A stretch of DNA of 35,251 nucleotides from Spirochaetaceae bacterium (GTDB lineage Bacteria > Spirochaetota > Spirochaetia > DSM-27196 > SLAA01). This document shows positions 5,886-19,953 of the stretch, in pieces. The position numbers and the translations under genes were made by a program. Under the pieces are notes generated by a model. It made no database searches. It saw only the letters and a program-made list of their open reading frames with translations, and was not told the origin of the DNA. Position 1 is the first letter of the stretch. Every line of letters starts with the position of its first letter. The stretch covers positions 1-35,251 of the forward strand of contig PUNW01000166.1 in NCBI GenBank assembly GCA_003552665.1, read 5' to 3'.

Positions 5886-7219
5886 GGCTGTACCGCTCGC
5901 AGCAGCCATCCCGGCGCCGGATGGAGTCGGGGTCGTCGTACGCGGTCAATCTGAATATGCCCGGCCGACTGATTCACCAATCTCTCCACGGGCTTACCCT
6001 CGAGCGTCAGTAGGCGAAACTCGCCGGGCTGCACCGAGGTAGCCATCTCGTGCGGCCCGAGGAGCTCAAATCCACGGTCGCTGTGTATGGTGTTCTTAAC
6101 GTCGACATAGAGCGGCGTGCTCCAGCGAGCGGTTTCGGCACCGCGGGCACCAGGGCGCTCCGCCTGATCCGCTTCGTGAGCGGCTTGCAGAGGCGCGCAC
6201 CGCGCTGCCGGTTGCTCCGTCCGGCACTCGGGCTGCGCCGGGGCTTCGATACTGCCGAGGAACAGGTGCGTCTGCCGGTAACTGCCGAGGGCCGGCTGGT
6301 CGAACGCCTCACGCCCAAAATAGAAACCGGTTGAGTATTCACGATGACTGACCGCGAAGAGATCGTCCCGGAACGGGTTCCGGTCTGCAGGATGGTCGAG
6401 CGCATAGCGATAGGCGCGTGTTACGACCGCGACGTAGTAGAGGCTCTTGATGCGTCCTTCGATCTTCAGGCTATCGACTCCGGCGGAACGCAAGTCTGCC
6501 AGATGGTCGATCATGCAGATATCCTTGCTCGACATCAGCGTGGTGAAGCCGCCGCCGGCGGTTTCACCGGTTTCGACCGGGAGGTACTCGCCCGGACGTT
6601 GCTCTTCTTCCAGCGCGAGCCGATAGCTCCAGCGGCAACTGTGGGCACAATCGCCTTGATTGGCCGAACGGTCGGCCGCCCATTTCGAGAGGAAGCAGCG
6701 TCCGGAGTAAGCGATGCAGACCGCCCCGTGTACGAATACCTCGAGCTCCAGCTCCGGGACGCGGTCCTTGATCGCCGCGATCTCTGAAAGCGAGAGCTCC
6801 CGGCCCGGCACGATCCTGCTGAAGCCCATGCGGTAGTACATCCGTGCCGCTTCCGGGTTCGTGCAGTTCGCCTGGGTGCTCAAGTGCAGCGGCAGATCGG
6901 GAAAGCGCCGCTGCAGGAGCGAGACCACACCGATATCGCTGACGATAAATGCGTCGAACGGATACTCGGCGATGCGTTCGAGGGACGCCTCGAGCGCGCC
7001 GAGGTCGGCGTTGTGAAAGTAGATGTTGAGCGCGCAGTAGAGCTTGCGGTCGCCCTTCAACGCCCGAATCTGTGCCGGGCTTTCAGCGCGCTCGTCATCG
7101 ATGTTCTCGGCGTTGGCTCGTAGACTGAAGCCGGGTAACCCCATATAGGCCGCATCGGCCCCGTACCGATAGGCATAGCCCAGCTTGCGGGAACTCCCGG
7201 CCGGTGCAAGTAATTCCAT
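5879..7219 (-). CDS. Peptidase U32 family protein
   Basis: MELLAPAGSSRKLGYAYRYGADAAYMGLPGFSLRAN, HLSTQANCTNPEAARMYYRMGFSRIVPGRELSL, ELEVFVHGAVCIAYSGRCFLS; start at the internal ATG 7219. Confidence 0.9.
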   Translation of the reverse strand: MELLAPAGSSRKLGYAYRYGADAAYMGLPGFSLRANAENIDDERAESPAQIRALKGDRKLYCALNIYFHNADLGALEASLERIAEYPFDAFIVSDIGVVSLLQRRFPDLPLHLSTQANCTNPEAARMYYRMGFSRIVPGRELSLSEIAAIKDRVPELELEVFVHGAVCIAYSGRCFLSKWAADRSANQGDCAHSCRWSYRLALEEEQRPGEYLPVETGETAGGGFTTLMSSKDICMIDHLADLRSAGVDSLKIEGRIKSLYYVAVVTRAYRYALDHPADRNPFRDDLFAVSHREYSTGFYFGREAFDQPALGSYRQTHLFLGSIEAPAQPECRTEQPAARCAPLQAAHEADQAERPGARGAETARWSTPLYVDVKNTIHSDRGFELLGPHEMATSVQPGEFRLLTLEGKPVERLVNQSAGHIQIDRVRRPRLHPAPGWLLRAVQPQ

Positions 7220-7274
7220 CACGCAGCAGAGTACCCGATCGATGCCGATCAGTCGAGCCGTACGAGCACGGCGC

Positions 7275-7700
7275 CTACGGGTTGAGAACGACCTCGTAAC
7301 TGAGGTCGGCAATCTGTCTGAGCATCGCCGACACGCCGCAGTATTTCTCCTGTGAGAGCTTCACCGCCTTTTCGATCTTGGCGCGATCGAGCGCGTCGCC
7401 GGTGAAGAGGTAGCGAACGCGGATCGCGGTATACACCCTGGGGTGCTCCTTCGAAAGATCCCCCTCTACCTCCACCTTGAAGCTCGCATACGGCATCTGC
7501 ATCTTGGCCAGGATCGAAGCCACGTCCATCCCGGTACATCCGGCTAGCGAGGTTAACATCAAAGCTTTTGGGGTGGGGCCGTAGTCTTGCCCGCCGACCG
7601 ACGAATCGGCGTCCAGTCGAAGGTTGTGGTTCTGAAGCTGCGCGTCGAACGCGAGCCCTTCACGGTGCGTAATCTCTGTGTGGTGGGTAGCCATGCTCAA
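7275..7700 (-). CDS. OsmC family protein
   Basis: GGQDYGPTPKALMLTSLAGCTGMDVASILAKM, typical of the OsmC/YhfA family. Confidence 0.86.
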   Translation of the reverse strand: MSMATHHTEITHREGLAFDAQLQNHNLRLDADSSVGGQDYGPTPKALMLTSLAGCTGMDVASILAKMQMPYASFKVEVEGDLSKEHPRVYTAIRVRYLFTGDALDRAKIEKAVKLSQEKYCGVSAMLRQIADLSYEVVLNP

Positions 7701-7701
7701 T

Positions 7702-7932
7702 TTACCTCTTCAGCGCGCGCTCGAGATCGGCCTTGCTGAAACCAACCAGGATCTTGCCGTTGACATCGATCACCGGCACGCCCATCTGGCGCGATTTTTT
7801 GTACATTTCATCCGCTCGGCGTTCATCGCGCGCAACATTGTATTCGGTGAAGCGTATGCCCCGCTCCCTCAAGTATTGCTTGGCCGTCGTACAGTGCGAG
7901 CACGTCGGAGTAGTGTAGATTTTGACTGCCAT
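7702..7932 (-). CDS. Glutaredoxin-family protein (CxxC: CSHC)
   Basis: MAVKIYTTPTCSHCTTAKQYLRERGIRFTEYNV...GVPVIDVNGKILVGFSKADLERAL. Confidence 0.92.
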   Translation of the reverse strand: MAVKIYTTPTCSHCTTAKQYLRERGIRFTEYNVARDERRADEMYKKSRQMGVPVIDVNGKILVGFSKADLERALKR

Positions 7933-7992
7933 ACCGAACCTCCCGGATAAAGCGTTATTACATATTGAAATTACTATATAAGGCGCGTTCGG

Positions 7993-8727
7993 TCAAGCGG
8001 TGGCTGCGTTTTTCACCAGCCCTTCGAGCGGCGCGAGCACCCGCCGCACAGCGAGCGTGCCCAAGACCGCGCGTACGGCCATCACCGCGAATATGATTCC
8101 GGCCGCGGTGCGAGTTGCGGCGACAATTCGGACGAGAAAGGGGTGTTCCGGCACGGCTACAACGATCAACCAGTCGAGATTGAGGTTGCGGTACGGCAGC
8201 ACCCCGACCAGTAAGCCCCTGGTTCGGCGGGGTGGCGGGCTGGTGCCGGGTGTAGCGCGCTGTTGCTCGGCGCGCACTGTGCTCCAGGTGTCGGCAATCA
8301 CCTCGTGGCCGCTCTCAGCCGGCCGGACGCGCAGAAGCGCCCCGGAATCGTCGCGGCGAAAATTATCTGTCAGCTCGGAGTTTGCGACCAGAATCCCGGT
8401 GGTGCGTTCCACGATATACAGCGCGCCGCCTCCGCCGAGATCGATGCTGCGCAGAAACCGGCTGAGCTGCGCGAGCAGGAGATCGGTGCCGAGCACCCCG
8501 ACCAGCCGGTCGCCTTGATCGTATACCGGAAGCGAGGCCGTCACCACAAGCTCCCCGGTCTGAAAGCCGGTGAAAATCGGGCTGAAGCTGATGCCCTGCC
8601 GCTCGGTTGCAGCGGTGTACCACGGGCGCAGGCGTGGGTCGAACTCGGTCACCGCATCGATTTCTTCTATCAGATCATGTACTTCAAGCCGCGATCTCTG
8701 TACCATCTGATCGACTCGCACATCCAC
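7993..8727 (-). pseudogene. Cache-domain sensor fragment truncated at both ends
   Basis: FDPRLRPWYTAATERQGISFSPIFTGF...GVLGTDLLLAQLSRFL...YIVERTTGILVANS is dCache-like; no N-terminal TM, only a GTG start, and it stops just inside a HAMP-like start (RRVLAPLEGLVKNAATA*). Confidence 0.65.
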
Positions 8728-8990
8728 AAGTACCAGAAGCGGTTTCAGGAGCGCCTCGAGCGCATCCTCGCTGAAGGAAAGCCAGTCCGGCGTTCTTCGC
8801 GATACCGACCCACATCACGCCGCTCTGGCTTTCCGCTGTTTGCGGGACGGCGGGCTCCTGTTTCTGATCCTGGACACCGGCATGACCGAACGGGACATCA
8901 GCCGGGTCTGGAGCAGCTTCTGGCACGGCCTCGCCGGACCGGAATGAACTGCGCGGCTCCCGCCCGGCAGCGGTCAGTCTTGAGGATCCC

Positions 8991-9020
8991 TTGACAGATA
9001 TGATTCGTGGTTGGTAACGT
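8991..9020 (+). promoter_or_regulatory. Candidate sigma70 promoter for the hybrid kinase
   Basis: TTGACA - 18 bp - TAACGT. Confidence 0.4.
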
Positions 9021-9092
9021 TTGCATTTCTTGAACCGCCTACGTCACTCATCTCATTGACACGCGTCATAAGAACCTACCGGAGACCACAGT

Positions 9093-10631
9093 TTGAATAC
9101 GCTGAAAGCTCTATTGGCGAACACTCCGGACGTCATCACGATCTTCAGCAAGGACGGCCGTTATGTCGAGGTCTCGGCAGCCGCGGCCGAGGTGATCGGG
9201 CGCTCGGTAGAGGAGATCAAAGGCAAGACCTTTTCAGAGGTACTGCCCACCGAAGTTGCGCAGGAGTTCATGCACACGCTCACCGAGTTACGGGAGACTC
9301 GGGAGCCGATGACTAAGACCGACGTTTTGGTCATCGAGGGGCAGGAGCGTGTGTTTGAAAGCAGGTTCTTCCCGGTGCAAACGGCTGCCGGCGCCGGTGA
9401 GGAGTACTTCGGTGCGATCGCGACCGACATAACCGAGAAGGAACGTGCGCAGGAGGAGCTCGTCCGAGCGCGAGAGAAGGCCGAAGCTTCGGACCGGGCC
9501 AAGAGCGAGTTTCTCGCAATCATGAGTCACGAGATACGCACGCCGTTGAACGGTATCGTCGGGATGCTGCAACTGCTCAACAGCACCGCACTGAACGACG
9601 AGCAGTGTGAGTGCGTTGAGTTGGGTCTGCGCTCCGCGGACAGGCTAACGCATTTGCTGTCCGATCTTCTTGAGCTTGCAACGATTGAGGCCGGCAAGCT
9701 CCGGATCGTGGAAGCCGAGTTCAGCGTTTCCCGCCTGTTGCAGTCCATCTCAGAGCTCTTTGAACTCGGTGCACGTGAAAAAGGTCTGCGTCTGAGTCTT
9801 GTGCCCAGCCCCGACCTTCCCGATGCAATCATTGGGGACCAATCCCGGTTGAAGCAGATTCTCTTCAACCTCGTGGGGAACGCTGTGAAGTTTACTCACG
9901 AGGGAGAGGTCTGCATTTCGGCCGAACCCGTCGACCGCGGCCCCGGGCGCCGGTTGGGTGTTGCCTTCGCTGTGAGTGACAGCGGCGTCGGCATTCCCCG
10001 CGATCGCCTCGATCAGCTGGCGGATCCGTTCAAACAGGTCGATAGCTCGCACACCCGGAGCCATGAAGGCGCGGGGCTTGGGCTCGCGGTGGTACACCGT
10101 CTCGTAAAGCTTATGAACGGGGCGGTGTCGATCGACAGCGTCGAGGGCGAGGGGACCACGGTACGAGTAGTGCTGCCGCTCAAACGCGCCGGGAATGAAG
10201 CTCCCAGTGACAGCGTACAAGGGGAGGAGGAGCCGCATGACGAGCACTGCGGAGTGCGGATTCTGGTTGCCGAGGATGACCGGCTGAACCAGATTGCCCT
10301 TCAGCGCCTCCTCGAGTCAAACGGGCACCGGATTACCGTCGTCAACGACGGCCGTGAGGTCATCGAGCGACTGCGCGCAGAGGAGTTCGATTGCGTACTG
10401 CTTGACGTGCAAATGCCGGTTATGAACGGCGTTGAGGCCACCCGCGAAATCCGTCAGGCCGAAAAGCTCAACGGCAAGCGCCATATCCCCATCATTGCTG
10501 TAACCGCCTACGCGGGATTCGAAGACCGGGAAAAGTTCATTCAAGCGGGGATGGACGACTACTTGGCGAAACCGGTGCTGATGGAAGACCTACAGCGTGT
10601 ACTGGCCCGTCATGTGATCGGTTCCACCTAG
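9093..10631 (+). CDS. Soluble PAS hybrid sensor histidine kinase with C-terminal receiver
   Basis: PAS (LLANTPDVITIFSKDGRYVEVS), H-box FLAIMSHEIRTPLNGIVGMLQ, HATPase (LVGNAVKFT, DSGVGIP, GAGLGLAV), REC (ILVAEDDRLNQ, LLDVQMPVMNG, LAKPV). Confidence 0.94.
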   Translation: MNTLKALLANTPDVITIFSKDGRYVEVSAAAAEVIGRSVEEIKGKTFSEVLPTEVAQEFMHTLTELRETREPMTKTDVLVIEGQERVFESRFFPVQTAAGAGEEYFGAIATDITEKERAQEELVRAREKAEASDRAKSEFLAIMSHEIRTPLNGIVGMLQLLNSTALNDEQCECVELGLRSADRLTHLLSDLLELATIEAGKLRIVEAEFSVSRLLQSISELFELGAREKGLRLSLVPSPDLPDAIIGDQSRLKQILFNLVGNAVKFTHEGEVCISAEPVDRGPGRRLGVAFAVSDSGVGIPRDRLDQLADPFKQVDSSHTRSHEGAGLGLAVVHRLVKLMNGAVSIDSVEGEGTTVRVVLPLKRAGNEAPSDSVQGEEEPHDEHCGVRILVAEDDRLNQIALQRLLESNGHRITVVNDGREVIERLRAEEFDCVLLDVQMPVMNGVEATREIRQAEKLNGKRHIPIIAVTAYAGFEDREKFIQAGMDDYLAKPVLMEDLQRVLARHVIGST

Positions 10632-10651: not shown

Positions 10652-10705
10652 AGCCCCACTCAGGTGGGTGAGCCCACTCAGCTACTCGAGCGCACTCAGC
10701 TCAGC
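10652..10705. repeat. Three imperfect 18-bp tandem repeats with core CACTCAG
   Basis: CACTCAG at 10657, 10675 and 10693, exact 18-bp spacing, between convergent gene ends. Confidence 0.6.
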
Positions 10706-11171
10706 TGCTCGAGCCCGATACGTAATTCTCCAACTGCCGAATCAAGCGTTGCTTTTCGTCGAGCAAAGCCTCCTTCTCACCGAGAGCCGCTTTCACGAGG
10801 TCGCCGATTGAGACGAGCCCGATCAAGCCGTTCGCTTCATCTACCACGGGGATGTGCCGGATTCGCCTGCGCGTCACAAACTCCATGCATTCCTGCACCG
10901 TTCGCTCCGGCGAAACCGTGATGACATCAGGTGTCATCAGCTCCTTGATCGGAGTTTCCCTCCCGAGGTCATCCCGTTCAACCGATTTGCGAGCATAGTC
11001 GCGTTCGGAGAAGATACCCACAAGGACGCCGCTCGCATCAAGCACCAACACAGCACCGATCTTATAATCGGCCATCAACCGAAGTGTATCAATCAAGGTG
11101 GTATCCGGGGTCACCGAGTAGATTTTGCGTCCGTTGATTCTGATAAGGTCTCCGACCGTTGTTTCCATCAT
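10701..11171 (-). CDS. CBS-domain pair protein
   Basis: TLIDTLRLMADYKIGAVLVLDASGVLVGIFSERDYARK and ELMTPDVITVSPERTVQECMEFVTRRRIRHIPVVDEANGLIGLVSIGDLVKA; AGGAGG RBS upstream of the ATG at 11171. Confidence 0.92.
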   Translation of the reverse strand: MMETTVGDLIRINGRKIYSVTPDTTLIDTLRLMADYKIGAVLVLDASGVLVGIFSERDYARKSVERDDLGRETPIKELMTPDVITVSPERTVQECMEFVTRRRIRHIPVVDEANGLIGLVSIGDLVKAALGEKEALLDEKQRLIRQLENYVSGSSS

Positions 11172-11209
11172 TTGCCTCCTCACTCTTTGACCTTTGACAA
11201 CTCCGCTCA

Positions 11210-11230
11210 CCGCCGCTTCGTCAGCGGCGG
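11210..11230 (-). promoter_or_regulatory. Stable hairpin in the CBS gene leader
   Basis: CCGCCGCT-tcgtc-AGCGGCGG perfect 8-bp stem. Confidence 0.35.
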
Positions 11231-11384
11231 GCGGGCCAACACACCAAAATAATACCATAAGACAGCTTGCGTGTGCGGCTCTTGATTCGCGCCCACACCG
11301 ACCGCGACGGGTTGCTACACGGGTGATCAGCTCCACCAATGAGCCGGCCTAAGGCATCTGCTTGTTGAAGAGAGCATGTAGAGT

Positions 11385-11512
11385 TTGTTATTTGAGGATG
11401 CGATTCGGGAAAGCGCGCAGCGGAATATGGAGCAAATTCCGACAGACGGAAGACCTACTCACCCCGGCGAAGTGTTACGTGAGGAGTTCCTCAGCCCTCT
11501 GGGGTTATTCTC
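11385..11512 (+). pseudogene. Truncated HigA-type antitoxin (N-terminal remnant)
   Basis: IPTDGRPTHPGEVLREEFLSPLGL parallels VPTDREPTHPGEILREEFLEPMGL of the intact HigA at 12216; homology ends where the tRNA-like repeat begins. Confidence 0.75.
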
Positions 11513-11522
11513 GAAGGCACAC

Positions 11523-11588
11523 TGCCGGAGACGGGACTCGCTGAAGCGAGCCCCGCTTGCCACGCCGGCTCTCTCTACGAGAGCACAC
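11523..11588 (-). repeat. 66-bp tRNA-Leu-like repeat unit (47-nt mini-tRNA module 11523-11569 plus hairpin linker 11570-11588)
   Basis: Identical to 13666-13731; on the minus strand the module starts GCCGGCGTGG and ends CGAGTCCCGTCTCCGGCA, matching both ends of tRNA-Leu. Confidence 0.9.
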
Positions 11589-11655
11589 TGCCGGAGACGG
11601 GACTCGAACCCGTACGGACCTCTCGGTCCAGGGGATTTTAAGTCGGGTCACCGGC
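11589..11655 (-). pseudogene. tRNA-Leu(UAA)-like sequence lacking the D-arm and 5' anticodon-stem strand (67 nt)
   Basis: Minus strand GCCGGTGACCCGACTTAAAATCCCCTGGACCGAGAGGTCCGTACGGGTTCGAGTCCCGTCTCCGGCA: anticodon loop CTTAAAA, variable stem GGACC/GGTCC, intact T-arm and 3' acceptor strand. Confidence 0.8.
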
Positions 11656-11889: not shown

Positions 11890-11910
11890 TAGCATGCGTA
11901 GCGTGCTATT
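11890..11910. promoter_or_regulatory. Inverted repeat ATAGCATGC-GTA-GCGTGCTAT, candidate HigA operator
   Basis: 9-bp arms with one mismatch, 10 bp upstream of the higB start. Confidence 0.6.
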
Positions 11911-11919
11911 CTATTCCGT

Positions 11920-12219
11920 GTGATTCAGTCGTTCCGAAACGATGCGAGTGAAGATCTCTTCAATGGACGAAACACGAAGGGAGCTCGTAAAGCGTGTCCG
12001 GAATCACTGTGGAACGTTCTAACGAGAAAGCTGGATGCGCTGGATTCAGCCGAACGTCTGGACGACCTCCGCATTCCACCCGGAAACCGCCTCGAGCAAC
12101 TCTCAGGAACGCGAGCCGGACAACACAGCATCAGGGTGAATGAGCAGTATCGAATCTGCTTTTCCTGGGCCGAGGGTGGACCCAAAGATGTCGAGGTGAC
12201 CGACTATCACGATGAGTGA
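11920..12219 (+). CDS. higB: HigB/RelE-family toxin
   Basis: MIQSFRNDASEDLFNGRNTKGARKACPESLWNVLTRKLDALDSAERLDDLRIPPGNRLEQLSGTRAGQHSIRVNEQYRICFSWAEGGPKDVEVTDYHDE; adjacent overlapping antitoxin. Confidence 0.92.
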   Translation: MIQSFRNDASEDLFNGRNTKGARKACPESLWNVLTRKLDALDSAERLDDLRIPPGNRLEQLSGTRAGQHSIRVNEQYRICFSWAEGGPKDVEVTDYHDE

Positions 12220-12536
12220 GGGAGCATATGGTACGAGTACCTACTGATCGAGAACCAACCCATCCCGGAGAGATCCTGCGAGAAGAGTTCCTTGAGCCGA
12301 TGGGCCTCAAACAGCAGGACCTTGCGAATGCCATTCACGTCCCGTTTCAGCGAGTCAATGAGATCGTTCGTTGTCGACGAGGGGTGAGCACCTCTACGGC
12401 GCTCCGACTGGCTCGGTACTTCGGAACGAGTGCCGGCTTCTGGATGAACCTTCAATTGCGCTATGATCTCTACGAGACCGAGCGAACGGAGAAGGAAGCG
12501 CTGGAAGGGATTGAGCCGCTGCATTACGTGGGATGA
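12216..12536 (+). CDS. higA: HigA-family (XRE/HTH) antitoxin
   Basis: PTHPGEILREEFLEPMGLKQQDLANAIHVPFQRVNEIVRCRRGVSTSTALRLARYFGTSAGFWMNLQLRYDL; overlaps the higB stop; likely start ATG 12228. Confidence 0.92.
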   Translation: MREHMVRVPTDREPTHPGEILREEFLEPMGLKQQDLANAIHVPFQRVNEIVRCRRGVSTSTALRLARYFGTSAGFWMNLQLRYDLYETERTEKEALEGIEPLHYVG

Positions 12537-13140: not shown

Positions 13141-13665
13141 GTGGTCACCACAACAACACAGTGTGGGGAGGCAGACACGGTGGCAGAAGACAGCATCGCA
13201 TTGTTGGAGCTGGTTGAACAGTACGCGGATGCGGATTTGTTCAAGGAACTGGGACAGTACGCTTTGCAGCGGCTTATGGGAATGGAGACGGAGCAGAAAG
13301 CGGGCGCTGGTCGTCATGAACGGAAAGACGATCGCCTTACTCATCGAAACGGGTACCGCGACCGCCGGCTTGAAACGCGGCTTGGGACGATGAACCTGAG
13401 GATCCCGAAGCTGCGTAGCGGTACGTACTTCCCGTCGTTTCTCGAGCCGCGAAAGATGAGCGAGCAGGCGCTGGTGGCCGTCGTCCAGGAAGCCTACGTG
13501 AAGGGAGTAAGCACCCGCAAGATCGACGACCTCGTGCAGGCGCTCGGGATGAGCGGAATCTCGAAGAGCCAGGTCTCCAAGCTCTGCGGAGAGCTCGACG
13601 AGCGCGTGGAGGCCTTCCTGAAGCGTGAGCTCACCGGACAGTGGCCGTACATGTGGCACTCTATT
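13141..13665 (+). pseudogene. IS256-family transposase, N-terminal remnant
   Basis: LVEQYADADLFKELGQYALQRLMGMETEQKAGAGRHERKDDRLTHRNGYRDRRLETRLGTMNLRIPKLRSGTYFPSFLEPRKMSEQALVAVVQEAYVKGVSTRKIDDLVQALGMSGISKSQVSKLCGELDERVEAF; homology breaks at 13665 where the tRNA-like array begins, DDE catalytic part missing. Confidence 0.85.
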
Positions 13666-13796
13666 TGCCGGAGACGGGACTCGCTGAAGCGAGCCCCGCT
13701 TGCCACGCCGGCTCTCTCTACGAGAGCACACTGCCGGAGACGGGACTCGCTGAAGCGAGCCCCGCTTGCCACGCCGGCTTTCCCTGGAAAGCACAC
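13666..13796 (-). repeat. Two tandem tRNA-Leu-like units (66 and 65 bp) immediately 3' of tRNA-Leu
   Basis: Modules 13666-13712 and 13732-13778 identical; linkers 13713-13731 and 13779-13796 form GCTCTC/GAGAGC and GCTTTC/GAAAGC stems. Confidence 0.92.
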
Positions 13797-13881
13797 TGCC
13801 GGAGACGGGACTTGAACCCGTACAGGCGCAATGCCCGGGGGATTTTAAGTCCCCTGTGTCTACCAATTCCACCACTCCGGC
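13797..13881 (-). tRNA. tRNA-Leu (anticodon UAA)
   Basis: Minus strand GCCGGAGTGGTGGAATTGGTAGACACAGGGGACTTAAAATCCCCCGGGCATTGCGCCTGTACGGGTTCAAGTCCCGTCTCCGGCA; full cloverleaf with 7-bp acceptor, long variable arm; CCA not encoded. Confidence 0.95.
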
Positions 13882-15625: not shown

Positions 15626-16876
15626 CTACTGCCCGAAGATCATCCCGCCGATATCGGAGCGGCACCATGCTCCCTCGAACCTCACATTCTTGACGGCAGC
15701 ATAGGCAGTGCTCCGCGCTTCGAGAAGCTCTCGCCCGAGCCCCACGACCGTGAAACAGCGGCCGCTTCCGGTCAATACGCGGTCGCCGTCGGTAGTTGTG
15801 CCGGCGTGAAACACCATCAGCTCCTTGCGGTTATCAAGGGGAAGCTCGTCCACCGGTATCGCCCGGCGGTAAGAACCGGGGTACCCAGGGCTGGCAAGCA
15901 CCACGCCGAGCGCGGTCTTGGTGGACAGCTCCAGCGGAAAATCGGCCAGTTTGCCCTCAACCATGGCTTCGCAGAGGTTTCCGAAATCGCTCTTGATCAA
16001 CGGCAGGACGACCTGCGCCTCAGGATCTCCGAATCGCACGTTGTACTCCAACACCTTCGGCCCGTCGTCGGTTATCATCAGCCCGAAATAGAGCACCCCG
16101 ACGTACTGCAACCCCTCGAGCTCGAGGCCCGCAAAAGTGGGGTTAACCACGCGCACGCGCACCTCCTCGAGCAGTTCAGGCGTTACCCACGGAACCGGAC
16201 AGATAGCTCCCATTCCGCCCGTATTCGGACCGGTCCCGCCGTCGCCCGCCTTCTTGTAATCCGCGCAGGGAGGAAGCAGTGTGTAGCTCGTTCCGTCGGT
16301 GAGCGCAAATATCGTGATTTCATAACCCGATAGGCGTTCTTCGACCAGAATCTGATCGTCCTGCAGAATCGTGCGCGCGAAGGCGATCATCTCGTCCTTA
16401 TCGTCGGTCTCGAGCACGCCTTTGCCTTCCGCGAGTCCGCTTTTCTTGATTACCACCGGACGCTCGAGGCTCTGGACATGCTCCTCGAACGCATCGATAT
16501 CGCTGAAGACCGCCGCTTCGGCAGTCGCAACTCCGTGGCGCCTCATGAAATCCTTGGAGATCGTTTTACTCGCTTCCAACTGGGCCGCGGCCGCCGTCGC
16601 ACCGACGGCCGGAATGCCGGCCTCCTGCAACGCATCCACGACTCCAGCCGCAAGCGGCGCTTCCCCCCCCACGAACACGAGATCGATCCGTTCTCGCCGG
16701 CAGACGTTGATCAGCGCCGCGGCGTCGGTCTCGGAGATTTCAGGGAAGTTGGTCGCAAGCTCGTTCGTGCCGGCGTTGCCCGGCACGCAGTAGAGCCCCG
16801 AGATGCGGAAGCTACGCGAAAACTTCCAGGTCAGCGCATGCTCTCGCGCTCCTCGCCCGAGAATCAACGCTCTCAT
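15626..16876 (-). CDS. purD: Phosphoribosylamine--glycine ligase
   Basis: MRALILGRGAREHALTWKFSRS...KDFMRRHGVATAEAAVFSD...VIKKSGLAEGKGVLE...NTGGMGAICPVPWV...NVRFGDPEAQVVLPLIKSD. Confidence 0.96.
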   Translation of the reverse strand: MRALILGRGAREHALTWKFSRSFRISGLYCVPGNAGTNELATNFPEISETDAAALINVCRRERIDLVFVGGEAPLAAGVVDALQEAGIPAVGATAAAAQLEASKTISKDFMRRHGVATAEAAVFSDIDAFEEHVQSLERPVVIKKSGLAEGKGVLETDDKDEMIAFARTILQDDQILVEERLSGYEITIFALTDGTSYTLLPPCADYKKAGDGGTGPNTGGMGAICPVPWVTPELLEEVRVRVVNPTFAGLELEGLQYVGVLYFGLMITDDGPKVLEYNVRFGDPEAQVVLPLIKSDFGNLCEAMVEGKLADFPLELSTKTALGVVLASPGYPGSYRRAIPVDELPLDNRKELMVFHAGTTTDGDRVLTGSGRCFTVVGLGRELLEARSTAYAAVKNVRFEGAWCRSDIGGMIFGQ

Positions 16877-17454
16877 ACGGTTGCCCCCTGTGACCAGTGA
16901 TCGAGCAGATCATGGACTACTTTCGGATACCAGTAGTGCTCGAGCGCGTGGATACGCTCGCACGCTGCCTGCAGATCGGCGACTTCAGACCGGTTGAACG
17001 ATCGTTGCACAATGATAGGACCGGTATCAACGCCGTAATCCACGAAGTGGATCGTGATTCCAAGCTCAGTATCACCGGAATTAAAACTATTTTCAATTGC
17101 TCCCACGCCGGCATGGCGGGGGAGAAGGGAAGGATGAATATTGACGATCCGCTGTGGAAACCGGTCGATGATCGTGGGGGTGAGGATCTTCATAAAACCG
17201 GCAAGCGCAATCATATGACACTCGCGACGATCGAGCTCGTCGATTATCTCGCGTTCGACCTCGCTTCGGGCGCGACGCGGGCGGTAGTCTGCATGGTAGA
17301 CCGCGATATCGCGCTCGTGCGCCCGTTCGACCACCGGCGCGTCAGGCTTGTCGGTGACCAGCACCGCAACGCGATGCGGGCCTCCCGCGAGCGCATCGGC
17401 GATTGCGACGAAGTTACTCCCGGTGCCGGAAGCGAATATCGCGAGGTTAGCCAT
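16873..17454 (-). CDS. purN: Phosphoribosylglycinamide formyltransferase
   Basis: MANLAIFASGTGSNFVAIADAL...LAGFMKILTPTIIDRFPQRIVNIHPSLLPRHAGVGAIENSFNSGDTELGITIHFVDYGVDTGPII. Confidence 0.95.
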   Translation of the reverse strand: MANLAIFASGTGSNFVAIADALAGGPHRVAVLVTDKPDAPVVERAHERDIAVYHADYRPRRARSEVEREIIDELDRRECHMIALAGFMKILTPTIIDRFPQRIVNIHPSLLPRHAGVGAIENSFNSGDTELGITIHFVDYGVDTGPIIVQRSFNRSEVADLQAACERIHALEHYWYPKVVHDLLDHWSQGATV

Positions 17455-18484
17455 CGACCAGCTCACCAATATTCCACACAGTCACATCACAAGCCTCGGC
17501 GGCTTTGCGTACTGCACCTTCATCCGCGCCGGGAACAACCACGACCATCCCGATTCCCATGTTGAAGACGCGGCGCATCTCGTCCTGCGAAACCTCACCG
17601 TCCTCGGCAATCTGACGGAAGACCGGCGGCACATGCCAGTCCCAGCGAAACTGCGGTTTCAGGTGGCCGGGAAGAACGCGCTGCGTGTTTGCGACCAGCC
17701 CGCCGCCGGTCACGTGAGCCGCACCGGTGACTCCCCCGGCGGCAAGCAGCGCTTCGAGTTCCTTCGTGTAGATGATCGTAGGTTCGAGCAGCGCGCGGCG
17801 CAGCTCGTCGGCACGCTGACGGGCGTCGTGATCCTGTCCGGCGCCGGCCTCGATTCGGGTGAGGACACGGCGCGCCAGGCTGAGCCCGTTGGAGTGAACG
17901 CCGGAAGAGGGCAGGCCCAGCAGACAATCCCCGGCCTGCATCCGGTTCGGCTGCGGCAGGACCCTGTCACGCTCGGCGATACCGACCGCGAAGCCGGCGA
18001 TGTCGAATCCGCGAGCACCGTAGAGGTCCGGCATTTCGGCGGTCTCGCCCCCGACCAGTCGACACCCGGCGATCTCGCACCCTCGTACGATACCCTCCAT
18101 GAGCGGCTCGAGCACAGTCGGTTCCACCCGTTCGCAGGCGATATAGTCCAGGAACGCCAGCGGTTGCGCCCCGCACACGATCAGATCGTTGACGCACATT
18201 GCGACCAGATCGATCCCCAGGGTATCGTAGCGCTCGAGCTGTTGAGCAATCAGCAGTTTGGTTCCCACGCCGTCGGTGGCCGAAAATAACACCGGCCGCC
18301 GGTAACCGTGGAGGTCCAGCTCGAGTCCGCCTGCGAACCCGCCGAGATCCGCTCCCACCACGCGCGGATTCAGGCTGCGAATGAACTCGGCAAATGCATC
18401 GCCGCGCTCGATACTGACGCCGGCCGCTTCATAGTCCAGCGGCCGGTCACTGCGGGGCTGCGACATCTGTTGGTGTCCGCTCAT
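17447..18484 (-). CDS. purM: Phosphoribosylformylglycinamidine cyclo-ligase
   Basis: DYEAAGVSIERGDAFAEFI...LFSATDGVGTKLLIAQQLERYDTLGIDLVAMCVNDLIVCGAQPLAFLDYIAC...GETAEMPDLY...HVTGGGL...VFNMGIGMVVVV. Confidence 0.96.
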   Translation of the reverse strand: MSGHQQMSQPRSDRPLDYEAAGVSIERGDAFAEFIRSLNPRVVGADLGGFAGGLELDLHGYRRPVLFSATDGVGTKLLIAQQLERYDTLGIDLVAMCVNDLIVCGAQPLAFLDYIACERVEPTVLEPLMEGIVRGCEIAGCRLVGGETAEMPDLYGARGFDIAGFAVGIAERDRVLPQPNRMQAGDCLLGLPSSGVHSNGLSLARRVLTRIEAGAGQDHDARQRADELRRALLEPTIIYTKELEALLAAGGVTGAAHVTGGGLVANTQRVLPGHLKPQFRWDWHVPPVFRQIAEDGEVSQDEMRRVFNMGIGMVVVVPGADEGAVRKAAEACDVTVWNIGELVDG

Positions 18485-18486
18485 TG

Positions 18487-19953
18487 TTATTCCTGCTCGG
18501 CGGCTCCGAGATCGGCGATCTCCATAGCCTTTCTCATCTCGCGCAAGTCACGCTCTCGACCGACCGCAAGCTCTTCTTGAGTCAGCGGTACATCGATGGG
18601 GTATGCCCCCGAAAAACAAGCATAGCAGTATGCATTCGGCGTGTTAAGACAGCTCTGTAGCTCATCGAGCGAGAGGAAGCGGACCGAATCAGCATGTGTA
18701 AACCGGGCGATCTCGTCCGGCATCATCGCGTTGGAAATCAGTTGTTTGCGCGTCGGGATATCGATTCCGAAAAAACAGGGCCAGCGGATTTCAGGGGAAC
18801 AGAGTCTGAGATGCACCTCGGTTGCTCCAACCTCGCGCACCAGGCGTACGAGCATCCGCGCCGTGGTCCCTCGCACCAGCGAGTCATCCACCAGGACTAC
18901 GCGTCGGCCCTCAATAACATCGCGTACCGGATGCAGCTTCATGCGTACCGCCAGGTCCCGTTCGGCAGTGGTGGGCATGATGAACGAGCGCCCGGCGTAG
19001 TGATTGCGAGTCAGGCCGAACTCCAACGTGATGCCTGATTGCTCGGCGTAGCCCAGCGCGGCGCTGTTTCCGGAGTCCGGTATCGGCACTACCACGTCGG
19101 CCTCAACTGCGTCGGCGGCAGCGAGCGCGCGGCCCATCGCCTTGCGAGCGGCGTGCACCGAGTGGCCGAACACTACAGAGTCCGGACGAGCGAAGTAGAT
19201 TAGCTCGAAGACACAGCGGGATTCGTTCTCCTGCTTGCGAACCTGCTCGCTGCGCGAGCCGAGGTGATCCACGATCAGGATCTCTCCCGGCACGAGCTCG
19301 CGATAGCCGCGGACGCGCAGGATATCCAGCGCGCAGGTTTCCGAGGCGACCACGGTCATTCCATCCTGCTCACCGACGTACAGCGGCCGGAACCCGCTGG
19401 GGTCGCGCACCGCTACCAGGGTGTCGTCGTGCATCAGCACCATGCTGTAGGCACCTTCGACCTCCGGCAGGATTTCGTGCAGCGCTTCCAGGAAGCTCTG
19501 TGCCCGCGAGCGCGACAGCAGGTGCAGCAGTAGCTCGGAATCGGAGCTGGTTTGGAAAATTGAGCCCTCATCGAACAGGCGCCGTTTGATCTCCGGCATG
19601 TTGGCGATGTTGCCGTTGTGCGCCAGCGCGATCTCACCCTTGTTGCAGTTGACCAGAATCGGCTGAGCGTTCTCGAGCTTGTTGCCGCCGTGCGTGGAGT
19701 AACGCACATGGCCGATTCCGACGTGACATAACCGCTCGCGTTCGAGATACCGCGAGAGCACGGTCGAGACCATGCCGAGGTCTTTGTACACCACACTGTG
19801 CCCATCCTTACGATAGGCGACACCGGTGCTTTCCTGCCCCCGGTGTTGCAGGGCAAACAGCGTGAAGAAGAGCTTCTCGGGAATATTGATGGGGTCGCGG
19901 GAGTGGACCGCCGCGACACCGCACTCATGCTCGATACCATCTGAGTAGAACAC
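18487..19953 (-). CDS. purF: Amidophosphoribosyltransferase
   Basis: ECGVAAVHSRDP...LFALQHRGQESTGVAY...GHVRYSTHGGNKLENAQPI...VVPIPDSGNSAALGYAEQSG...RVVLVDDSLVRGTT...CFSGAYPIDVP. Confidence 0.97.
   Translation of the reverse strand: MFYSDGIEHECGVAAVHSRDPINIPEKLFFTLFALQHRGQESTGVAYRKDGHSVVYKDLGMVSTVLSRYLERERLCHVGIGHVRYSTHGGNKLENAQPILVNCNKGEIALAHNGNIANMPEIKRRLFDEGSIFQTSSDSELLLHLLSRSRAQSFLEALHEILPEVEGAYSMVLMHDDTLVAVRDPSGFRPLYVGEQDGMTVVASETCALDILRVRGYRELVPGEILIVDHLGSRSEQVRKQENESRCVFELIYFARPDSVVFGHSVHAARKAMGRALAAADAVEADVVVPIPDSGNSAALGYAEQSGITLEFGLTRNHYAGRSFIMPTTAERDLAVRMKLHPVRDVIEGRRVVLVDDSLVRGTTARMLVRLVREVGATEVHLRLCSPEIRWPCFFGIDIPTRKQLISNAMMPDEIARFTHADSVRFLSLDELQSCLNTPNAYCYACFSGAYPIDVPLTQEELAVGRERDLREMRKAMEIADLGAAEQE

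Follow-up and report, generated by a model that had tools for sequence, protein, structure and literature searches.

The stretch of DNA analysed here, referred to as the window, comprises 35,251 nucleotides from a Spirochaetaceae bacterium and carries on its minus strand a tRNA-Leu(UAA) gene with no encoded CCA (13797..13881; ARAGORN; Rfam RF00005, 59.6 bits), behind which short repeat units form an array. Unit 1, of 65 nt (13732..13796, minus strand), directly adjoins the tRNA and consists of a first stem-loop (SL1, GCTTTC-CAGG-GAAAGC), a GCAAG box, a second stem-loop (SL2) and a copy of the tRNA 3' end. Unit 2, of 66 nt (13666..13731, minus strand), has a different SL1 (GCTCTC-GTAGA-GAGAGC) and is otherwise the same as unit 1; both units are matched by the covariance models R1 and R2, and unit 2 also by the repeat finder. 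Read in the sense of the tRNA, the two units are followed by an insertion of 2 kb containing a truncated Mutator/IS256-type transposase gene (13141..13656, plus strand; Pfam PF00872, profile positions 9-163 of 379), which is cut where unit 2 ends, and intact higBA genes for a HigB-like toxin (11905..12219, plus strand; Pfam PF05015, E 1.7e-19) and a HigA-like antitoxin (12216..12536, plus strand; Pfam HTH_3, E 3.7e-7). Beyond the insertion lies a displaced, attR-like tRNA-Leu 3' half (11589..11644, minus strand; repeat family D3), whose sequence runs from the anticodon loop to the discriminator base and includes a foreign variable arm. It is followed by unit 3 (11523..11588, minus strand; repeat finder; R1, 74.4 bits), which has the same sequence as unit 2 and which the insertion has moved about 2.1 kb away; when the window's own genome was searched, this third identical copy was returned together with a partial match at 11510-11606, within the window. 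The array terminates in a cut fourth unit (11506..11522, minus strand), of which the sequence retains only the start and the 5' arm of SL1, fused to an N-terminal higA fragment (11430..11507, plus strand) that is cut at the array and, without a Pfam match, resembles the intact HigA by eye. A CBS-domain gene (10704..11339, minus strand; Pfam CBS) forms the far flank. A junction of the same kind, between a unit and a higA-type sequence, recurs on another contig (G003:C195, locus L011), where the neighbour is again a CBS-domain gene. Elsewhere in the window, open reading frames at 15626-19953 are purD-, purN-, purM- and purF-like by translation and lie 3' of a SpoU methylase gene.

A sequence-only reading of the window had reported two identical 47-nt modules directly after tRNA-Leu(UAA), and these are present on the minus strand at 13732-13778, within unit 1, and 13666-13712, within unit 2; chance is excluded as the source of this exact duplication. 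The similarities it described were reproduced, the module agreeing with the tRNA-Leu 5' end at 9 of 10 positions and with the 3' end exactly over 16 nt, as was the 9-bp stem with one G-U pair, a single module folding at -30.4 kcal/mol (z -4.3). Its delimitation of the repeat has to be revised, because the linkers of 18-19 nt that it had treated as spacers fold into a separate hairpin in which a change on one side is compensated on the other (GCTTTC/GAAAGC versus GCTCTC/GAGAGC); the linkers are part of the repeat unit, which therefore measures 65-66 nt and not 47 nt.

Across all units found, the length ranges from 63 to 85 nt. The 5' part comprises SL1, in most units a box reading TGCAAG, CGCAAG or TTCAAG, the 5' strand of a T-stem and the base opposite T60, and the 3' part comprises a variable palindrome instead of the T-loop, T60, the T-stem 3' strand, and the acceptor 3' strand with the discriminator base. 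The conserved core is a T-stem-like hairpin in which the T-loop has been exchanged for the variable palindrome, and the closing stem of SL2 is made up of the copied T-stem 3' strand of the resident tRNA and its matching strand. From T60 to the discriminator base, the terminus of the unit is the resident tRNA's own 3' end; the copy spans 14-16 nt with no encoded CCA, and its last 13 nt are exact in 23 of 29 first units. The fit of the T-stem was measured by placing the inner hairpin and its left arm blind to the tRNA and then comparing the four adjoining bases with tRNA positions 61-64, a rule that left out nine further units in which the inner stem is too short or interrupted. All four bases pair in 18 of the 20 units, and the mean of 3.8, against 2.38 with tRNAs permuted, was reached by 0 of 10000 permutations; the base opposite T60 is G in 19 of these 20 units. 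Two types of SL1 occur: one resembles GTCTGCCTTC-GTTGA-GAAGGCC, and the other (GCCCGCC-TATCC-AGGCGGGCTATTTTTT), found at tRNA-Cys and tRNA-Pro, is terminator-like and amounts to an outright terminator in genomes G088 and G492. The type can differ between species at one tRNA, and both are present in the Pro(GGG) array of genome G003.

An exact-pattern search of 395 genomes of the phylum matched the window genome only, and a covariance model was therefore needed. R1 detected units in 13 of 46 genomes of the order and the broader R2 in 27 of 398 genomes of the class, belonging to 14 genera and 12 families, which bears out the structural conservation in relatives that the sequence-only reading had proposed as a test. 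Over the phylum, R2, a model tuned to class sequences, found no units beyond the class; covariance searches of the sister genus gave no convincing unit, and a search of phage and plasmid records found nothing similar. Arrays are present in all five genomes of the window's genus, where a survey of about 150 tRNA genes for downstream copies of each tRNA's own last 14 nt located them behind six isoacceptors, Leu(UAA), Leu(GAG), Val(CAC), Cys(GCA), Pro(CGG) and Pro(GGG), and at no others, each unit bearing the 3' end of its own tRNA; the survey rejects the idea of an oddity unique to tRNA-Leu(UAA). Further hosts are Val(UAC), Thr(GGU), Thr(UGU) and possibly Asn, so that units, each with its host tRNA's end, occur at a total of at least nine isoacceptors. 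The unit behind tRNA-Asn (L247/L261, G492:C190, 885-976) combines an end that matches its host with a T-stem half, TCCGG, that mismatches the host T-stem, and is possibly a hybrid or a recent arrival. Wherever the DNA around a confident unit was available, the unit either adjoins the 3' end of a tRNA, belongs to an array that follows one, or comes after a displaced tRNA half. Between one and five units were observed per locus; since several contigs (G002:C71:34301-34384, G004:C169, G003:C195, G002:C5 and others) stop at the tRNA or partway through the array, counts from these drafts are lower bounds.

The closest known counterparts are found in E. coli K-12, which has 22 tRNA-linked repeats (TLRs) at ten loci, one to five at each, every repeat finishing with 18-19 bp identical to the 3' end of the preceding tRNA or rRNA (PMC8144298). 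TLRs have been on record since 1978 (Egan and Landy 1978; Rudd 1999, both through PMC8144298), and there is still no agreed origin or function for them (PMC8144298). The spirochaete units are like TLRs in following directly behind a tRNA gene in one to five copies per locus, in carrying at their terminus the copied 3' end of the gene before them and, in some cases, in following a first terminator, as the rrB TLR does. They differ in being 63-85 nt long, as opposed to about 150-180 nt between the repeated ends of TLRs, in their shorter tRNA copy of 14-16 nt, in their two covarying hairpins and GCAAG box, and in their host tRNAs. By these features they are tRNA-linked repeats in kind, in a compact variant. 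The E. coli tyrT locus (rtT), which had been named as the nearest precedent, stands up to comparison: in the minimum free energy fold of the 178-nt repeats at tyrT-tyrV, GGGGAAGGAT pairs with ATCCTTCCCC of the tRNA copy, and since these repeats likewise close on the tRNA 3' end, they have this logic in common with the spirochaete units. Membership in the Rfam family RtT (RF00391) was rejected, cmscan up to an E-value of 2 having matched no spirochaete unit in the loci scanned, while the E. coli control gave four matches at 133-138 bits.

Comparison of the cores, in segments delimited by hand, gave identities of 0.655 for units of the same genus at different tRNAs, 0.545 for units at the same tRNA in different genera and 0.533 for unrelated pairs; permutation of genus labels equalled the observed value in 0 of 2000 trials, and permutation of tRNA labels gave P 0.22. 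The core thus tracks the genus and not the tRNA, from which it follows that units have spread or been homogenised between tRNA loci. The core goes with the genome, and the closing stem and the end go with the tRNA. Copies decay with distance from the tRNA, the mean number of mismatches to the tRNA end rising from 0.28 in first units to 0.75 in second and 1.36 in third units.

Covariation within the units is strong. Alignment A7, made up of 32 distinct units, has 97.3% of its cells paired; both sides have changed in 13 of 17 pairs, and 142 cells have changed on both sides against 4 on one, for a covariation score of 0.681 as compared to 0.197 in shuffles; alignment A3 has both-side changes at 10 of 17 pairs. 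Entire palindrome tips are exchanged between units. G-U pairs occupy 3 of 461 unit cells, counted outside two fixed G-U columns, versus 96 of 1572 cells in tRNA stems of the same genomes, and are hence about ninefold rarer in unit stems. Covariation of this order would ordinarily be taken to mark an RNA, but palindromes that are perfect and lack G-U intermediates would be explained no less well by templated copying of DNA or by a requirement for hairpins in the DNA. The position of terminators varies among loci: a terminator separates the tRNA from SL2 in four genomes (G088, G492, G036, G038), arrays at Leu(GAG) stop ahead of the terminator, one array lies between tRNA-Thr and an apparent rpmG, and many arrays come ahead of any terminator. 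Judged from this layout, the array is probably cotranscribed with the tRNA at some loci and probably not at others.

We favour an explanation at the DNA level, to which we give about an even chance of being correct: the units would multiply as DNA palindromes attached to the 3' ends of tRNAs, and their transcription would be incidental. It draws on the T-stem fit and the covariation of the units, the scarcity of G-U pairs, the terminators between tRNA and SL2, the exchange of cores between loci, the decay away from the tRNA and the foreign DNA found in arrays. Under this model, a first unit would arise by duplication or insertion at the T-loop and 3' end of a tRNA gene, and recombination between the identical tRNA ends would let the array grow and shrink. 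Templated copying from one arm to the other, or a need for the DNA hairpin, would keep the palindromes perfect, and cores would be traded between tRNA loci within one genome. At loci with no intervening terminator, the units would be transcribed as a folded 3' trailer, which would hold the extra T-stem strands in local hairpins and so avoid competition for the tRNA, and the repeated tRNA ends would offer foreign DNA a place to land. Several observations stand against propagation at the DNA level. The conserved G opposite T60 forms a wobble pair that correction of the palindrome should remove, which hints at some other constraint, and neither Y1 transposases nor integrases are consistently tied to arrays, for which no phage or plasmid counterpart was found.

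As many arrays lie ahead of any terminator, an RNA role has some plausibility, and the main alternative, which we hold to be clearly less likely, is that the units are RNA genes, the tRNA transcript being processed into folded small RNAs that bind proteins or act as sponges, like the products of E. coli TLRs or 3' external spacers. The very strong covariation of both hairpins would be expected of such genes, as would arrays that separate tRNA-Leu(GAG) from its terminator or tRNA-Thr from rpmG, and the rrA, rrB and rrF TLRs of E. coli give transcripts that are processed and that bind Hfq and CsrA in vitro (PMC8144298). The same terminators and G-U deficit that favour the DNA level weigh against RNA genes, as do the patchy presence of the units, none of which occurs in the sister genus, and the precedent of rtT, for which a role in recovery from starvation was once claimed and later withdrawn (PMC8144298). 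A more specific proposal, that the units are self-propagating miniature DNA elements specialised on the tRNA T-loop and 3' end, which would take a single core to successive tRNAs of a genome and adapt its closing stem to each host, with the E. coli TLRs as long relatives, strikes us as unlikely.

Several loci indicate that arrays are insertion sites for foreign DNA. Besides the higBA genes and displaced tRNA half inserted in the window array, a HigBA-like pair lies at the end of an array on a contig of genome G002, and genome G039 has a tRNA-Val 3' half plus a unit. At L249 (G050:C1:450000-465000, 6771-9759), two units behind tRNA-Val(CAC) flank an insert of 2.85 kb that contains a DnaJ-like open reading frame among others and terminates in an attR-like tRNA-Val 3' half. 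The tRNA-Leu(UAA) of genome G003 (L059/L016, G003:C90) has a different variable arm and ends in CCGGTA, its units being on G003:C195; it looks as though an integrated element has supplied this tRNA with a new 3' half. A higB region accompanied by higA is found in nearly identical form at about 9960-11750 of L264 (G061:C65:1-20000) and at 11890-12536 of the window, in two families and in both cases adjoining tRNA-Leu(UAA) 3'-end copies, which suggests a common, horizontally moved cassette. At another locus (L096, G000:C157, 1215-1450), what by eye resembles the remnant of an XRE-type helix-turn-helix gene follows a Val(CAC) array.

Such insertions bring up a further reading, in which the units are integration scars, an integrase displacing the tRNA end at the T-loop and repeated or tandem events leaving behind displaced ends and short att-arm sequences. 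The unit copies start at T60, in the region of the T-loop inferred as the attachment site of the Dehalococcoides tandem ssrA islands, where more than a dozen 20-bp ssrA repeats occur (PMC3146451); the two systems share rows of displaced 3' ends starting in the T-loop, and differ in what separates the repeats, which in Dehalococcoides is islands of kilobase size that contain serine recombinase modules (PMC3146451) and in the spirochaetes palindromic fillers of 50 nt. The attR-like tRNA halves within arrays (window 11589-11644, L224/L250 and L249) and an integrase gene (PF00589) beside the Val(CAC) array at G002:C244 likewise speak for scars. In the PF00589 search that is the only array with such a neighbour, and integrase genes were not found on most array contigs, although att sites can outlive their integrase; an integrase of this family is not a consistent partner of the arrays. 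The uniform spacing of 63-85 nt and the two conserved hairpins are moreover unlike decayed islands, and the core is specific to no island, and we consider integration scars unlikely. The units resemble REP/BIME sequences in being short, palindromic, arrayed and exchanged within a genome; unlike REP/BIME with RAYT, they are bound to tRNA 3' ends, few per genome and show no Y1 association. Y1 transposase genes (PF01797) occur in 2 of 15 array genomes and in 10 of 31 others of the order and do not track the arrays, for which reason REP/RAYT membership was rejected. Nor does an integron-like cassette array describe these loci, as most units adjoin directly, with genes between units in some arrays (e.g. 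higBA).

The sequence-only reading had taken the modules for tandem mini-tRNAs, that is, minihelices of acceptor and T-arm retaining both acceptor strands, possibly freed by RNase P and CCA-tailed. In the window genome the module does have the exact tRNA 3' end and 6 of 7 acceptor pairs, a 6/7 match whose shuffled P is 0.08-0.10. The supposed acceptor 5' strand reads GCCGGCG in the window and GCCGATG, GCCAGCT, GCCGAAC or CCATGCC in relatives, the module's GCC is where SL1 ends, and upstream of SL2 no 7-nt complement of the acceptor 3' strand does better than shuffled sequence in nearly all units, by which a minihelix with paired acceptor strands is rejected. Given that several relatives have terminators between tRNA and SL2, release of CCA-tailed mini-RNAs is no general function, and we regard mini-tRNAs as highly improbable, ranking them last behind DNA-level propagation, RNA function and integration scars, in that order.

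The spirochaete units are short, numerous and diverse, with dozens of loci on different tRNAs and covariation that can be measured. They show a repeat built on the tRNA's own T-stem, with a core that is moved or homogenised and distal copies that decay, and the origin of TLRs becomes testable through comparison of strains. For annotators, they are a warning that such covariation need not imply a functional RNA, and the arrays may be one reason why contigs of draft genomes break at tRNA genes.

A longer repeat, of about 130-160 nt (GGATTTGAAACGAGCGA...CCGGAG..CAAATCC), is present at L254, L256 and L260 (G036, G038 and G468), where it starts with an inverted copy of the tRNA T-arm and 3' end and finishes in the tRNA 3' end. 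Among five long-type units compared (L254, L256, L260, L264 and L225), none resembles rtT and two, L256 and L260, resemble the core of the E. coli rrB TLR, a modest similarity (z 3.5, 1 of 300 shuffles each) that is no more than suggestive. At tRNA-Val(UAC) in G040 and G017 (L220, L229 and L221), an unrelated hairpin-rich segment (GGACGAAGCCGCGCAGCGC...) lies between units or between the tRNA and the units.
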